A stretch of DNA of 64,000 bases from Phycisphaeraceae bacterium (GTDB lineage: Bacteria > Planctomycetota > Phycisphaerae > Phycisphaerales > UBA1924), in contig JAHBXB010000002.1 in assembly GCA_019636655.1 (NCBI GenBank), positions 446,537 through 510,536 of the forward strand, given 5' to 3'. The notes under the pieces are model-generated. The model saw only the letters and a list, made by a program, of their open reading frames with translations, made no database searches and was not told the origin of the DNA. Shown here in pieces: positions 2,246 to 62,629 of this stretch; within the stretch, counting starts at the first letter, position 1; every line of letters starts with the position of its first letter. The translations under genes were made by a program, and so were the position numbers.

Positions 2246-3319
2246 TTAGTCCTGCGGTATCGGACAGTGGCCGCCGTTCTTGAGGTGGTAGTCCTGGTGG
2301 TAGTCCTCGGCCGGGTAGAAGGTCGGCGCTTTCTCGACAGCCGTGACGATCTTGCGGTTCTTGAACCGCTCGGTCTTCTGCTGCTCGTCGATGAAGGCCT
2401 TGGCCTGGCGGAGCTGGTCATCACCGACGGTGAAGATCGCCGAGCGGTACTGGTCCCCGACGTCCGGCCCCTGCCGGTTGAGCTGCGTCGGATCGTGAAA
2501 CTTGAAGAACTTCTCCATGAGTTGGCGGTAGGTCACGCGGCTGGGGTCAAAGACCACCCGCACGGCCTCGGCGTGCCCTGTGCCGTGGGAACAGACGTCC
2601 CGGTATGTCGGGTCAGACGTGGTGCCTCCCATGTAGCCACTGACGGCGTCCAGGACGCCGGGCACCTGCTGGAACCGGTCCTCGACGCCCCAGAAGCAGC
2701 CTCCTGCGAAATAGGCGGTTTCGGTCTTGATCGGCATCGACTGTGGGGGCAACTTTTCACCCTCCTCGTAGAACGTCATGGAGATTGAGTTCAGGCAATA
2801 GCGCTGGCCGGTCGGCGGCGGCCCATCGGGGAACACATGACCCAGGTGCGCTCCGCAGCGAGCGCACAGGATCTCGGTGCGGACCATCCCGTGTGATGTG
2901 TCGGCCAACTCGCGGATGTGCGCGGCGTCGAACGGCTGGAAGAACGACGGCCAGCCACTCCCCGACTCGAACTTGGAATCGGACGAGAAAAGAGGCAGGC
3001 CGCAGAGTCGGCAGACGTACTGGCCCTGCTTGTGGTTGTCGACAAGCGTGCCGCAGAACGCAGGCTCGGTGCCCTTGGCGAGGATGACCCTGGCCTCTTC
3101 GGGCTTGAGGGCCTTGGCAAGTTCGTCGACCCGTTCCGGGCTCAGGGGCGACACGTCAAATCCGGACTTCGAAATCACGGGGCCTCTGGTCGGCGCCGCT
3201 GGCGTCTTCATCGCGTCTCCAGAATCCTGCCGGCGCCACGCGGACCCCGCCGCGTACACCACGGCGGAGGTGACGATCGCGAACAGCGCGAGCAGAGCAA
3301 AGGGATAGAGAAACCTCAT
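2246..3319 (-). CDS. msrAB: Exported bifunctional methionine sulfoxide reductase MsrB-MsrA
   Basis: The 357-residue protein begins with a hydrophobic membrane/signal segment (residues 1-25). An MsrB domain follows, with zinc cysteines CRLC (103-106) and CARC (152-155) and the catalytic cysteine in RYCLNS (Cys175). The second half is an MsrA domain with the catalytic GCFWG motif (Cys208) and a C-terminal GGHCPIPQD. Together they reduce both R- and S-diastereomers of methionine sulfoxide; the leader suggests a periplasmic or membrane-anchored role. The MsrB-before-MsrA order is the less usual arrangement but is known in several phyla. The reducing partner is not encoded next to it. Confidence 0.94.
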   Translation of the reverse strand: MRFLYPFALLALFAIVTSAVVYAAGSAWRRQDSGDAMKTPAAPTRGPVISKSGFDVSPLSPERVDELAKALKPEEARVILAKGTEPAFCGTLVDNHKQGQYVCRLCGLPLFSSDSKFESGSGWPSFFQPFDAAHIRELADTSHGMVRTEILCARCGAHLGHVFPDGPPPTGQRYCLNSISMTFYEEGEKLPPQSMPIKTETAYFAGGCFWGVEDRFQQVPGVLDAVSGYMGGTTSDPTYRDVCSHGTGHAEAVRVVFDPSRVTYRQLMEKFFKFHDPTQLNRQGPDVGDQYRSAIFTVGDDQLRQAKAFIDEQQKTERFKNRKIVTAVEKAPTFYPAEDYHQDYHLKNGGHCPIPQD

Positions 3320-3469
3320 GGCAACCCTTCCGCACCCGCGGATCGCGGCGGTGGGCCAGCCGAGGAGCGGGTGCTCACATTCCTATTCGATGCCGCCCGG
3401 GCCCAGAAGGTTCGCGCCGAGACATCGATTTGGACTAGGGAAAACCATGGCATCCGACCTATCGGCGCG

Positions 3470-4444
3470 TCATACCCGCTTGGCGGCGAGCCGATCCGGC
3501 GTGGGAACGCGGATGTTGCTCGCCAATCCAAACAGAGCCATAGCTCTGATGATCACGTAGCTCAGGTCGAACTCCCACCAGCGCAGGCCGTGCCGCGCCG
3601 ACGTCGGGAACGCGTGGTGGTTGTTGTGCCACCCCTCGCCCATGGCCAGAACGCCGATGATCGGGTTGTTCCGGCTCTCATCGTGGCTGCGGAAGGGCTG
3701 GGTACCCCAGATGTGGCAGACCGAGTTGACGCTCCAAGTCACGTGGTGGACAAAGAAGACCCGCACAAGGCCGCCCCAGATCAGGCCCAGGAGCACCCCC
3801 ATCCACGACATCGTCAGCAGCCCGCCCAGGACAGCCGGGATCGCAAGGCCGAGGACGGCCAGCAGCGGGAACGCCGCGCTCATCCGCCGGATCATGGCGT
3901 CCTTACTCAGGTCCACCACGTAGCGATCGAGACCCTTGGGGGTGGCGGTAAAGAGCCAGCCAATGTGCGAGTGCCACGCGCCGCGGAGGATGCCGGCGAC
4001 GGTATCGCCGTGGGTGTGCGGGGAGTGCGGGTCATCGAACTCGTCGCTGTGCTGGTGGTGGCTGCGATGGACGGAGACCCATTCGAGAATCGGGCCCTGC
4101 ACGGCCATCGATCCCAGGGCCCCGAGGACGAAGGCCACCGGCTTGGGGGCATCGAAGGACTTGTGGGTGAAGTAGCGGTGGAACCCGATCGTGATCCCCA
4201 GCCCCGTGGCAAGGTACATCCCGACCAGCAGGCCCAGGTAGACCCAGCTGAACGCCACGCCCCAGAGCATGATGATCGCCGCGACCAGCCCGGCAAACGG
4301 GAGCACCACGACGATCAGGTTGACCGTCCGGAGCTGCCAACTCATGGGCTCGTGCTTGGGCGTGCGGGGGGGGTCGGGTTCGTGGACGGATGGTGCACTG
4401 GCGGGTTCAACCACGCCGGCGGGGGGGGACGCTGTCATGTTCAT
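3470..4444 (-). CDS. Acyl-CoA / fatty acid desaturase (delta-9 type)
   Basis: This 324-residue integral membrane di-iron desaturase carries all three histidine boxes: HRYFTH at 89-94, HRSHH at 126-130 and HNNHH at 273-277. Four hydrophobic spans surround them (about 42-85, 103-118, 190-215, 216-236). It introduces a double bond into saturated acyl chains using O2 and an external electron donor, so it adjusts membrane fluidity and implies aerobic life. The first 35 residues are a Pro/Ser-rich cytoplasmic tail encoded partly by a run of eight G in the plus strand. The first ATG at 4442-4444 has only a weak ribosome site; the ATG two codons later is an alternative. Confidence 0.92.
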   Translation of the reverse strand: MNMTASPPAGVVEPASAPSVHEPDPPRTPKHEPMSWQLRTVNLIVVVLPFAGLVAAIIMLWGVAFSWVYLGLLVGMYLATGLGITIGFHRYFTHKSFDAPKPVAFVLGALGSMAVQGPILEWVSVHRSHHQHSDEFDDPHSPHTHGDTVAGILRGAWHSHIGWLFTATPKGLDRYVVDLSKDAMIRRMSAAFPLLAVLGLAIPAVLGGLLTMSWMGVLLGLIWGGLVRVFFVHHVTWSVNSVCHIWGTQPFRSHDESRNNPIIGVLAMGEGWHNNHHAFPTSARHGLRWWEFDLSYVIIRAMALFGLASNIRVPTPDRLAAKRV

Positions 4445-58339: not shown

Positions 58340-59434
58340 TCAATCCCCGAACGACACACCCAGCGCCCGCGCGGCCTCCACCAGCGGGCTGTCGAGCGGC
58401 ACCTTGCGCTGCTTCCCCGCGGCCTCGCGGATGTCGACGTCCACCAGTTCGAGCCCCTTGAGCCCGACGAGACGGTTCCGCGCACCCGCCCGCAACAGAC
58501 GGATCGCGTGGAAGCCGAACTGCGTCGCCAGCACCCGGTCGGCCGGGATCGGCGAACCGCCCCGCTGGACGTGCCCGAGGACGACGTGCCGCGACTCCAC
58601 CCCTGTGCGCCGCTCCAGTTCGTCGGAGACGACCTTGGCGATCCCGCCCAGGCGGATCGGATCGGGCGACGACGGGTCCACGCGGTGCACGACCTGCTCC
58701 CCGCCCTTGGGCCGGGCTCCTTCGGAGATCGCGATCACAGTGTGACGCGTGCCCGTGCGGGCCCGCTCCTGCACCAGCGCGGCGACCTTATCCATCGAGA
58801 CCTCGATCTCCGGGATCAGGATCGCGTGCGAACTGCTCGCGATCCCGGCATGCAGCGCCAGGAAGCCGGCGTGCCGGCCCATGACCTCGACGACCAGGAC
58901 ACGGTGGTGGCTCGCCGCGGTGGTCTGGACGCGGTCGATCGCCTCCGCCGCGGTGGCGACCGCCGTGAGGAAGCCGAAGGTCACGTCGGTGCCGACCAGG
59001 TCGTTGTCGATGGTCTTGGGGATGCCGATGCAGTTGACCCCCGCCTCCACGAACGACTGGGCGACAGTCATCGACCCGTCGCCGCCGATCACCAGCAGGG
59101 CGTCGATCCTCTCCCTGCCGAGCAGGTCGAGGCACCGGTCCAGGACGTTCTCAAAGACCGGCTTGCCGTCCGCATCGCGCCGCACGGCGAACCGGCGCGG
59201 GTCGGACTTGTTGCACGCGCCCAAGATCGTGCCGCCGGCATTGAGGATGTCCCGCACGTCGGAAGCGACCAGGGGCGAGGTCCGCCCCTCGATCAGGCCC
59301 AGGTAGCCGTCGTGCACCCCCAGGACTTCGACGCCCGCGTGAAGCGCCCCCATCGTGACGACGCGGATGACGGCGTTGAGGCCGGGGCAATCACCACCGG
59401 CGGTGAGGACAGCGATACGTCGGATGGCCTTCAT
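58340..59434 (-). CDS. pfkA: 6-phosphofructokinase, ATP-type (mixed signature)
   Basis: This 364-residue PFKA-family enzyme has RIAVLTAGGDCPGLNAVIR, the phosphate-donor signature VIGGDGSM (117-121), PKTIDNDL (139-146), GRHAGFLALHAG and RGGSPIPADRVLA. In the family, the Gly in GGDGS favours ATP, while Lys in PKTIDND is usual in pyrophosphate enzymes and in some ATP enzymes of clade III. It phosphorylates fructose 6-phosphate. The start ATG 59432-59434 is 106 bp from the divergent pyrophosphate-type gene. Confidence 0.9.
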   Translation of the reverse strand: MKAIRRIAVLTAGGDCPGLNAVIRVVTMGALHAGVEVLGVHDGYLGLIEGRTSPLVASDVRDILNAGGTILGACNKSDPRRFAVRRDADGKPVFENVLDRCLDLLGRERIDALLVIGGDGSMTVAQSFVEAGVNCIGIPKTIDNDLVGTDVTFGFLTAVATAAEAIDRVQTTAASHHRVLVVEVMGRHAGFLALHAGIASSSHAILIPEIEVSMDKVAALVQERARTGTRHTVIAISEGARPKGGEQVVHRVDPSSPDPIRLGGIAKVVSDELERRTGVESRHVVLGHVQRGGSPIPADRVLATQFGFHAIRLLRAGARNRLVGLKGLELVDVDIREAAGKQRKVPLDSPLVEAARALGVSFGD

Positions 59435-59540
59435 GGCGGAACTCCCGGGTGCTCGACCGAGTCGGCGCGCCGGCAGCCCCGGGGCGGTACCATGGGCGAC
59501 CCAGGGGACAAACGACGCGAACGGAACAACGGAGAAGGCT

Positions 59541-60782
59541 ATGAGAGGTACTCGCACCGTGAAGAGGGCCCGTGCGGCCGAGGCGGGCAACGCGATCATC
59601 GGACAGTCCGGCGGCCCGACGGCGGTGATCAACCAGTCGCTCGCCGGGCTCGTCGAATCGCTGCGCAAGCACAAGCACATCCGCAAGGTCTACGGGATGC
59701 GCCACGGCGTCAACGGCCTGGTCAAGGACGACGTGATCGACCTGACCAAGCTCCCGCTCACGCACCTGAACAAGATCGCCGTCACCCCCTCCGCCGCGCT
59801 CGGCTCGTCGCGCGACAAGCCCGACCGGGACTACTGCAACGCGATCCTCAACGCCTGCACCAAGTTCCGCATCCGCTACTTCTTCTACATCGGCGGCAAC
59901 GACTCGTCGGACACCTGCCGCATCGTCAACGAGCTGGCCCGCGAGGCCGGCTACGAGATGACCTGCTACCACGTCCCCAAGACCGTCGACAACGACCTGA
60001 TGATGAACGACCACACGCCCGGCTTCCCCTCCGCCGCGAGGTTCCAGGCGCTGGCGTTCATGGCCGACAGCCTCGACAACGCGAGCCTGCCGGGCGTCAA
60101 GATCAACATCGTCATGGGCCGGCACGCCGGATTCCTCACCGCCGCCGCCGCGCTGGCCCGCGGCGAGGGGAAGGGCGCGGACCGCAACGGCCCGCACCTG
60201 GTCTACCTCCCCGAGGTGCCCCTTAACCGCGACTCGTTCCTCACCGACGTCGAGCGCGTCTACGCCCGTCTGGGCCGCTGCCAGGTCGCCGTCTCCGAGG
60301 GGATCACCGACGCCCGCGGCCAGCCGATGATCTCCCAGCTGATGGAGAACCTCGACCGCGACTCGCACGGGAATATCCAGCTCTCGGGCGTCGGCGCCCT
60401 CGGCGATGCCCTGGCCGACCTCGTGCGCCGGAACGTCAAGCTCCCCAGCGGGAAGGCCCTGCGCGTGCGTGCCGACACCTTCGGCTACCTCCAGCGCTGC
60501 TGGCCCGACCCCTCGCCGATCGACTCCCGGGAGGCGCGCGACGCCGCCAAGTTCGCCGTCTCGTGCGCGATGCGGGGCGAGCCAAGCGGGTCGATCGCCA
60601 TCGTCCGGCTGAAGAACAAGCCGTACAAGGCGGGGTACAAACGCGTCGAGCTCACCGATGTCGCGGCCAAGACCCGCCACATGCCCAAGGAGTTCATCGA
60701 GGGCTCCAACAACGTGACCAGGGCGTTCCTGAACTACGCCAAGCCGCTCGTAGGGCCGCTGCCGGTGATGACCCGGCTGTAG
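59541..60782 (+). CDS. pfp: Pyrophosphate-type 6-phosphofructokinase
   Basis: This 413-residue enzyme has NAIIGQSGGPTAVINQSL at the N-terminus, YIGGNDSSDT (118-125; Asp in place of the ATP-type Gly), HVPKTVDNDLMMNDHTPG (Lys148) and MGRHAGFLTAAAALARG. The Asp and Lys pair is the mark of pyrophosphate-dependent enzymes, which work reversibly near equilibrium. The start ATG 59541 has GGAGAAGG upstream. It is divergent from the ATP-type gene and followed by a strong bidirectional hairpin. Confidence 0.9.
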   Translation: MRGTRTVKRARAAEAGNAIIGQSGGPTAVINQSLAGLVESLRKHKHIRKVYGMRHGVNGLVKDDVIDLTKLPLTHLNKIAVTPSAALGSSRDKPDRDYCNAILNACTKFRIRYFFYIGGNDSSDTCRIVNELAREAGYEMTCYHVPKTVDNDLMMNDHTPGFPSAARFQALAFMADSLDNASLPGVKINIVMGRHAGFLTAAAALARGEGKGADRNGPHLVYLPEVPLNRDSFLTDVERVYARLGRCQVAVSEGITDARGQPMISQLMENLDRDSHGNIQLSGVGALGDALADLVRRNVKLPSGKALRVRADTFGYLQRCWPDPSPIDSREARDAAKFAVSCAMRGEPSGSIAIVRLKNKPYKAGYKRVELTDVAAKTRHMPKEFIEGSNNVTRAFLNYAKPLVGPLPVMTRL

Positions 60783-60913: not shown

Positions 60914-61660
60914 TCAGTGCTTGGGCAGGTTGTTCTCGATCGATTTGCGGACGCCGCCGGTGGATGCGGGGGTCGCGCCCTTGTCTCCGGCGGAGCGGGT
61001 GTAGGTGATCTCCATCGCCTTGGACTCGGGCATCCCAGGGCCGCCGTGGTACATCGTCATCACGTGCTTGTCGGGAGAGACCACCTGAAGCGTCTCTCGC
61101 TGGGTGAAGGTCACGATCGTGCCGTCGGGCCCGGGGCCGCTGAACTCACCGGTCAACGTGTACGTCTTGGTCGCGTCGTTGTACGTGCCCGTGCTGTACA
61201 TGATGCCGGTGCTCATGCTGTCGAACCACGTTCCCTCGTACTTCTTGGTGGCGTTGTTGAAGCCGAAGTTACCGGCGCCCGTGAAGGGCTGGCCCATGAA
61301 CTCGCCGCTGTACTCGTGGTGCAGGTAGCGGTCGCCCTGGACGAGGGTGTTCACCATCGTGCCGCGCGAGACGGCGGGCTGGGTGCTGCCGGGCTCGAAC
61401 ATCTTGACCTCGGCGTCCCACGAGCCGGCAAGCTGGGCAATGCGCTTGTGCTCCGGGCCAGGCTGGGAGAGCTTCATCCACGCATCCATCATCTGCTGGT
61501 GCGCATCGGCCCCCTCTTTGGCCGGCTGACCGGCGTGGGTCGGCGAGGCCGGGTTGGCCGTCTTCTTGTCCGGCTGCTGCGCGAGCAGGCTCGCCGAAGC
61601 TCCGGCGATCACGGTTAGAGCAAGGCACGACGTGCTGATTCGGGAAAGGACTCGGTTCAT
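60914..61660 (-). CDS. DUF1579-like exported protein 1
   Basis: This 248-residue protein has a signal peptide (SCLALTVIAGASASLLAQ) and the DUF1579 core: PEHKRIAQLAGSWDAEVKMFEPGSTQPAVSRGTMVNTLVQGDRYLHHEYSGEFMGQPFTG, then YEGTWFDSMSTGIMYSTGTYNDATKTYTLTGEF. The fold is a calycin-like beta barrel; no function is established. ATG 61658-61660 has AAGGAG 7 nt upstream. A related gene lies 69 bp upstream on the same strand. Confidence 0.85.
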   Translation of the reverse strand: MNRVLSRISTSCLALTVIAGASASLLAQQPDKKTANPASPTHAGQPAKEGADAHQQMMDAWMKLSQPGPEHKRIAQLAGSWDAEVKMFEPGSTQPAVSRGTMVNTLVQGDRYLHHEYSGEFMGQPFTGAGNFGFNNATKKYEGTWFDSMSTGIMYSTGTYNDATKTYTLTGEFSGPGPDGTIVTFTQRETLQVVSPDKHVMTMYHGGPGMPESKAMEITYTRSAGDKGATPASTGGVRKSIENNLPKH

Positions 61661-61729
61661 CTGATCACTCCTTGAAGGTCGCACCGCCGCGTCGTGGCTC
61701 ACCGTACAACGGTGTCGCCGCGAGCTCGG

Positions 61730-62482
61730 TCAGTTCCTGGGTTTGCCTGCTGCGTCGGACTCGATCGGCTTCTTGCCGCCCGTCGGGCTCCCCGCAGAGC
61801 CCGCCTTGCCGGCGTGCCCCTCAGCCGCCGGCTGGTCGTCTTTCACGCGGGTGAAACTGATGCTCATCGTCTTGGTCTCCTGCTCCTCGCCGCGCGCGGA
61901 GTAGAAGCCCATCGTGTACGCATCATCGCTGATAGATGTGACAATCCACTTGTGCCTGGTCTTCTGGCGGGTGGCGGGGTCGATCGCCTCGCCCGTGAGC
62001 GTGAACGTGCGACCGTCTTCCGAAACCGTTCCGCTCAGCCACAGGATGCCGGTGCTCTCCGAGTCGATCCACACCGACTCGTACTTCTTCTCCAGGTTGT
62101 TGTACGCCCAGATCCCCGAACCCTCGAACACCTGACTGCCCGTCTTCCCGCGGTAGGTCGTGCGGAGGTAGCGGCCGTCCATCTCCATGACATTTGTCAT
62201 GCGGCCGCTCGATTCGACCGGCGCATTGGTTCCGGGGATGTTGAACTTCACCGAGGCGTCCCACTCCCCAGCCAGCACCTCGAACTTCTTCTGCATCTCC
62301 CCCGGCAGGCCGGCCTCGCGGACCGCCGCGGCCCTCACCTCCCGCTCCGCGCTCGCGGCGTCGGGCGAAGCCTTCTCCCCCTTGCCCGGCGGTTCGCCCG
62401 CCGGCTTCTCCTGGGCCAAGCAGATCGCCGATGCGAGCCACACCGCGGACATCAGCACCGGCACGCTGCGCCATCTGGCCAT
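61730..62482 (-). CDS. DUF1579-like exported protein 2
   Basis: This 250-residue paralogue of the next gene has a signal peptide (SVPVLMSAVWLASAICLAQ), a charged linker, and the same core: MQKKFEVLAGEWDASVKFNIPG...SSGRMTNVMEMDGRYLRTTYRGKTG, YESVWIDSESTGILWLSGT. The end is Gly/Lys-rich. ATG 62480-62482 with GGAG 9 nt upstream is preferred to earlier in-frame starts. A 147-bp spacer lies between it and ribBA, with a short AT-rich patch (62532-62560) that may hold its promoter. Confidence 0.82.
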   Translation of the reverse strand: MARWRSVPVLMSAVWLASAICLAQEKPAGEPPGKGEKASPDAASAEREVRAAAVREAGLPGEMQKKFEVLAGEWDASVKFNIPGTNAPVESSGRMTNVMEMDGRYLRTTYRGKTGSQVFEGSGIWAYNNLEKKYESVWIDSESTGILWLSGTVSEDGRTFTLTGEAIDPATRQKTRHKWIVTSISDDAYTMGFYSARGEEQETKTMSISFTRVKDDQPAAEGHAGKAGSAGSPTGGKKPIESDAAGKPRN

Positions 62483-62629
62483 CGGACAACTCCAAGACAT
62501 CACCCGCGGAGCGAACCCCCGTCTCCCACGATGACCTATCATAGTCCAAACATCAAGTCGGGTCAAGCAGGGCTTCGGTGCACAATCAACACACCAACAC
62601 CCCTGGTCATTCCCCTCCGCGCTCGCGTG

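Follow-up and report, generated by a model that had tools for sequence, protein, structure and literature searches.

Donor use in the PFK-A superfamily of 6-phosphofructokinases has been connected with a small number of residues (E. coli numbering). Assays of cyanobacterial and Azospirillum enzymes gave the signature GGDGSxxG for ATP and GGDGSxxI for ADP (PMC11609450), the last residue being position 108, and Gly is present at this position in all solved ATP-PFKs (PMC12203962). In enzymes using pyrophosphate (PPi), an Asp fills the site of the ATP alpha-phosphate (PMC12203962), Gly at position 104 speaks against PPi as donor (PMC11609450, PMC12203962), and Lys124 is no donor indicator according to a 2025 review (PMC12203962). 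Nucleotide-dependent and PPi-dependent types, as well as their coexistence, are already known; a literature search for divergently transcribed ATP- and PPi-PFK genes returned no relevant case.

The window, a 64,000-nucleotide stretch of the genome of a Phycisphaeraceae bacterium, was found to carry two complete PFK-A genes, the start codons of which point apart with exactly 106 bp between them (Table 1). Both products are full matches to PF00365 (331 bits for the left-hand PFK and 153 bits for the right-hand PFP, cut-off 30.9 bits), internal stops are absent, and the spacer includes Shine-Dalgarno-like sequences, GGAGAAGG ahead of the PFP ATG on the + strand and GGGAG for PFK on the - strand. 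Both are genuine genes, as opposed to chance open reading frames, and the 3.66-Mb genome has no other PF00365 match. The motifs are LLVIGGDGSMTVAQ...GIPKTIDNDL in PFK and FFYIGGNDSSDT...HVPKTVDNDL in PFP; the GGDGS and GGNDS motifs, the PKT(I/V)DND lysine and the coordinates of the divergent pair are as an earlier note on this DNA gave them. As the proteins share only ~28% identity, the pair reflects an old divergence of types, and a recent duplication, considered as its origin, was ruled out. On balance, the pair probably consists of two paralogous PFK-A enzymes with different donors, a PPi-type PFP and a nucleotide-dependent PFK, that were placed head to head by a lineage-specific rearrangement and have separate promoters.

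Table 1 Positions of the phosphofructokinase genes and of other features referred to in the text.
Feature	Sequence	Position	Strand	Remarks
Left-hand PFK, 6-phosphofructokinase, PFK-A superfamily	window	58340-59434	-	364 aa, ATG start; PF00365
Divergent intergenic spacer	window	59435-59540	.	106 bp, 71.7% GC
Right-hand PFP, PPi--fructose-6-phosphate 1-phosphotransferase (pyrophosphate-type 6-phosphofructokinase)	window	59541-60782	+	413 aa, ATG start; NF010675/PRK14072
DUF1579 protein	window	60914-61702	-	
DUF1579 protein	window	61730-62566	-	
Two H+-translocating pyrophosphatase genes	G000:C1	974131-979343		adjoining, on one strand; outside the window
PFKX / PFP	L120	ATG 5190 / ATG 5417	- / +	divergent, 226-bp spacer; PFKX, PRK06830-type PFK
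PFP / PFKX	L121	ATG 5547 / ATG 5708	- / +	divergent, 160-bp spacer
PRK06830-type PFK / PFP	L161	1030-2305 / 2413-3628	+ / +	tandem, ~108 bp apart; genome elsewhere in the class
GGDGSxxI protein	L182	1501-2574	-	alphaproteobacterial

The right-hand product had been called pyrophosphate-like, and by models and motifs it is a good PPi-type enzyme. Residues 15-404 match NF010675 (PRK14072) with 421.3 bits, above the cut-off of 273, position 104 is the Asp of GGxD[ST], read here as GGNDS, and the nearest solved chains, 3k2q and 3hno, are both named PPi-dependent. GGNDS and PKTVDND are retained by the PFP relatives in Phycisphaerae, with Asp104 in every relative compared. As no match to PF00316 or PF03320, the profiles for fructose-1,6-bisphosphatase (FBPase) classes I and II, was found in the genome by a search that was positive in control genomes, PFP is probably also a gluconeogenic enzyme. 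The genome also contains two H+-translocating pyrophosphatase genes (Table 1). PFP is near-constant in the family and the other PFK is often missing, such that PFP occurs alone in ~32 of 100 same-family genomes. Both enzymes would catalyze the step between fructose 6-phosphate and fructose 1,6-bisphosphate, PFP reversibly with PPi and the left-hand PFK as a nucleotide-dependent glycolytic enzyme.

The left-hand PFK passed a single NCBIfam model, the umbrella model NF002872 (374.5 bits, cut-off 253), and none that is donor-specific. Its best NCBIfam match, TIGR02483 (group III or mixed), gave 384.3 bits, yet this is under the cut-off of 430.55, and it also failed TIGR02482, the ATP equivalog for group I (284.7 bits, cut-off 371.35; the E. 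coli homologue L180 scored 412.2), and NF010674 (329.3 bits, cut-off 544). The protein has Gly104, Val108 and Lys124, and its motifs GGDGSMTV and PKTIDND depart from the group I signature GGDGSxxG and PGTIDND and from the ADP signature GGDGSxxI, although Val is an aliphatic residue similar to Ile. In a tree of 76 rows, which was built by a quick method with SH-aLRT support only and in which cyanobacterial sequences are absent, it fell inside a Phycisphaerae clade with group III proteins, off the group I branch that holds the E. coli-type ATP enzymes and distinct from the clade of alphaproteobacterial GGDGSxxI proteins as well. By its sequence, the left-hand PFK is of the short group III type, and a literature search disclosed no characterized enzyme for its clade. 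The earlier label "ATP-type" is not established in view of the two models missed, TIGR02482 and NF010674, and of the Val at the end of the motif. One alphaproteobacterial GGDGSxxI protein (L182, Table 1) passes NF010674, a model named ATP-dependent, with 585 bits; given the ADP signature of this protein, the name of the model may be misleading. NF010674 was also run on control genomes, none of which gave a match over the cut-off, and the model is not linked to cyanobacteria thereby.

As position 104 is Gly, PPi is an unlikely donor for the left-hand PFK. The Gly and Lys mix had been taken as the source of ambiguity between donors, but the lysine is uninformative, being present in known enzymes of both the ATP and the ADP type: the pair Gly104 and Lys124 was found by alignment in the ATP-PFK of Trypanosoma brucei and in the alphaproteobacterial homologues with GGDGSxxI, in agreement with the review cited above (PMC12203962). 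Position 108 is occupied by G, A, C, S, T, V or I within the clade, and 25 changes at this position are needed on the tree over all 76 rows. Many relatives at the order and class levels retain Gly108 and hence the ATP signature. With a residue that changes this readily between close relatives, either ATP or ADP could be the donor, and to this extent the decision to leave the donor open was sound. Such frequent change suggests either a residue that is not donor-setting in this clade or a relaxed use of donors.

With ADP as donor, Gly104 would retain the alpha-phosphate site and Val108 would, like Ile, block the adenine cleft for ATP, and the pair would run on ADP and PPi with a PFK-A family devoid of ATP-PFK. 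This reading is possible but tentative. It draws on the motif GGDGSMTV set against the two signatures (PMC11609450), on the Gly104 and Lys124 shared with the ADP-signature alphaproteobacterial homologues, the best of which are 41-46% identical to the left-hand PFK over the full length, and on the Gly108 of every solved ATP-PFK (PMC12203962), from which Val108 differs, a point that also counts against the account preferred here; ADP-PFK-A homologues are reported to be rare in the PVC superphylum (PMC11609450). However, the tree places the protein outside the alphaproteobacterial clade, its score against NF010674 is far from the one obtained by an alphaproteobacterial member, and position 108 changes too often in close relatives to be more than a weak donor marker here. 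Identity to ADP-PFK-A exceeds 40%, a weak indication, as E. coli PfkA is 42% identical too, while membership judged by the ADP-PFK-A clade together with more than 544 bits for NF010674 is contradicted by the separate Phycisphaerae clade and by 329.3 bits. ATP is thus regarded as somewhat more likely than ADP. The broader proposal, namely that an uncharacterized planctomycete PFK clade uses ADP, or ATP and ADP, and that this organism, lacking an ATP-dependent PFK-A, carries out its PFK step with ADP and PPi, is less likely than not.

The earlier note had further taken the 106-bp spacer to be common to both genes and to allow one irreversible and one reversible step to be controlled reciprocally, which the divergent orientation and the short distance might indicate. 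Such a role appears improbable. A scan of the spacer for sigma-70-like promoters and terminators found none, and a repeat search returned one 17-nt imperfect inverted repeat that links the starts of both genes, together with a pair of short GC palindromes, all unconvincing as operators. Comparison with other Phycisphaerae, proposed in the note as a check, was made at the family level and above, the genus being represented by this genome alone. Besides this one, 63 same-family genomes have at least two PF00365 matches, and gene positions could be read in 59 of them from the match listing, DNA matches or locus sequences. PFK and PFP were adjacent in none of these 59, and no PFK-family gene adjoined PFP in 73 named loci around PFP relatives, some of which are short upstream. 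As same-family relatives lack the arrangement, an outcome that the note itself had named as counting against its proposal, there is no support for a control switch common to both genes.

The closest same-family case is G028, which is sister to the present genome in the PFK tree with a support of 86 and supplies the best PFP match (70%); there, the two genes are 5.2 kb apart on one strand and PFP is followed downstream by ribBA and PFK. The order PFP - DUF1579 - ribBA is found downstream here and in several relatives; the two DUF1579 proteins between PFP and ribBA in the window are ~33% identical. Given the order kept by relatives and the position of G028 in both comparisons, a local rearrangement that put PFK beside PFP is the simplest account; the neighborhood would already have had PFP, ribBA and sometimes PFK, and each gene would most likely have its own promoter in or beside the spacer. 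Within the family this genome alone has the adjacency, which might point to an assembly artefact, but this was rejected as very improbable, as the pair sits within a 1.06-Mb contig, its right flank is found again in relatives, and in L074 PFP likewise has pilin-like and bactofilin genes nearby.

Divergent pairing of PFP was found again in just one genus (g85; G112 and G132), which belongs to another family of the same order, and the partner is a different PFK, of the PRK06830 type, with the motif GGDGTQRG and therefore the Gly of the ATP signature; the spacers measure 160 and 226 bp (Table 1). PFP and a PRK06830-type PFK are in tandem in G204, elsewhere in the class. A rough estimate, made post hoc, puts the expectation at ~0.1 adjacent pairs in roughly 130 genomes, compared with the three lineages seen, so that the recurrence exceeds chance. 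Some functional coupling may therefore exist, and common regulation of PFK and PFP is conceivable. The recurrence leaves room for a weaker proposal, namely that PFP on occasion comes to lie beside a nucleotide-dependent PFK. As it employs another PFK, the recurrence gives no support to the spacer described here as a conserved switch. In a separate Phycisphaerae PFK subfamily (L145, L146, L158, L162 and L163), GG(G/R/N)GT takes the place of GGDGT and position 108 is Asn, as in GGGGTQKN; the motif lacks its usual Asp.

Of wider interest would be which donor the left-hand PFK clade uses. A rule proposed in 2024 distinguishes ATP from ADP use by position 108; this residue is freely variable in close relatives from Phycisphaerae, which makes the clade a natural test of the rule. 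If ADP proved to be the donor, ADP-dependent PFK-A could extend to planctomycetes. In that case names in databases would be misleading, given that an ADP-signature protein is already covered by a model named ATP-dependent.

Compared with PRK14072 PPi-PFKs (3k2q, 3hno), PFP shares the full-length match over the cut-off, the donor-site Asp and the PKTVDND lysine, but it reads GGNDS where the solved enzymes read GGGDS, and its PPi activity is predicted from sequence. The left-hand PFK resembles the cyanobacterial and alphaproteobacterial ADP-PFK-A (PMC11609450) in its length of ~365 aa, in Gly104 and Lys124, in a bulky aliphatic residue at 108 and in its identity to the best alphaproteobacterial proteins, and differs in Val for Ile, the NF010674 score and the separate clade. 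With the group I ATP-PFK, E. coli PfkA (TIGR02482), it shares the superfamily, Gly104 and the 42% identity, whereas it has Lys124 and Val108 for Gly, is under the model cut-off and lies off the group I branch. As for the planctomycete Thermogutta terrifontis, the part of the published account drawn on here reports four PFKs and does not describe a divergent pair; comparably to the present genome, in which FBPase classes I and II were not found, ATP- and PPi-annotated PFKs coexist there and FBPase is absent, and a gluconeogenic PPi-PFK replacing FBPase was likewise inferred by its authors (PMC5673643).
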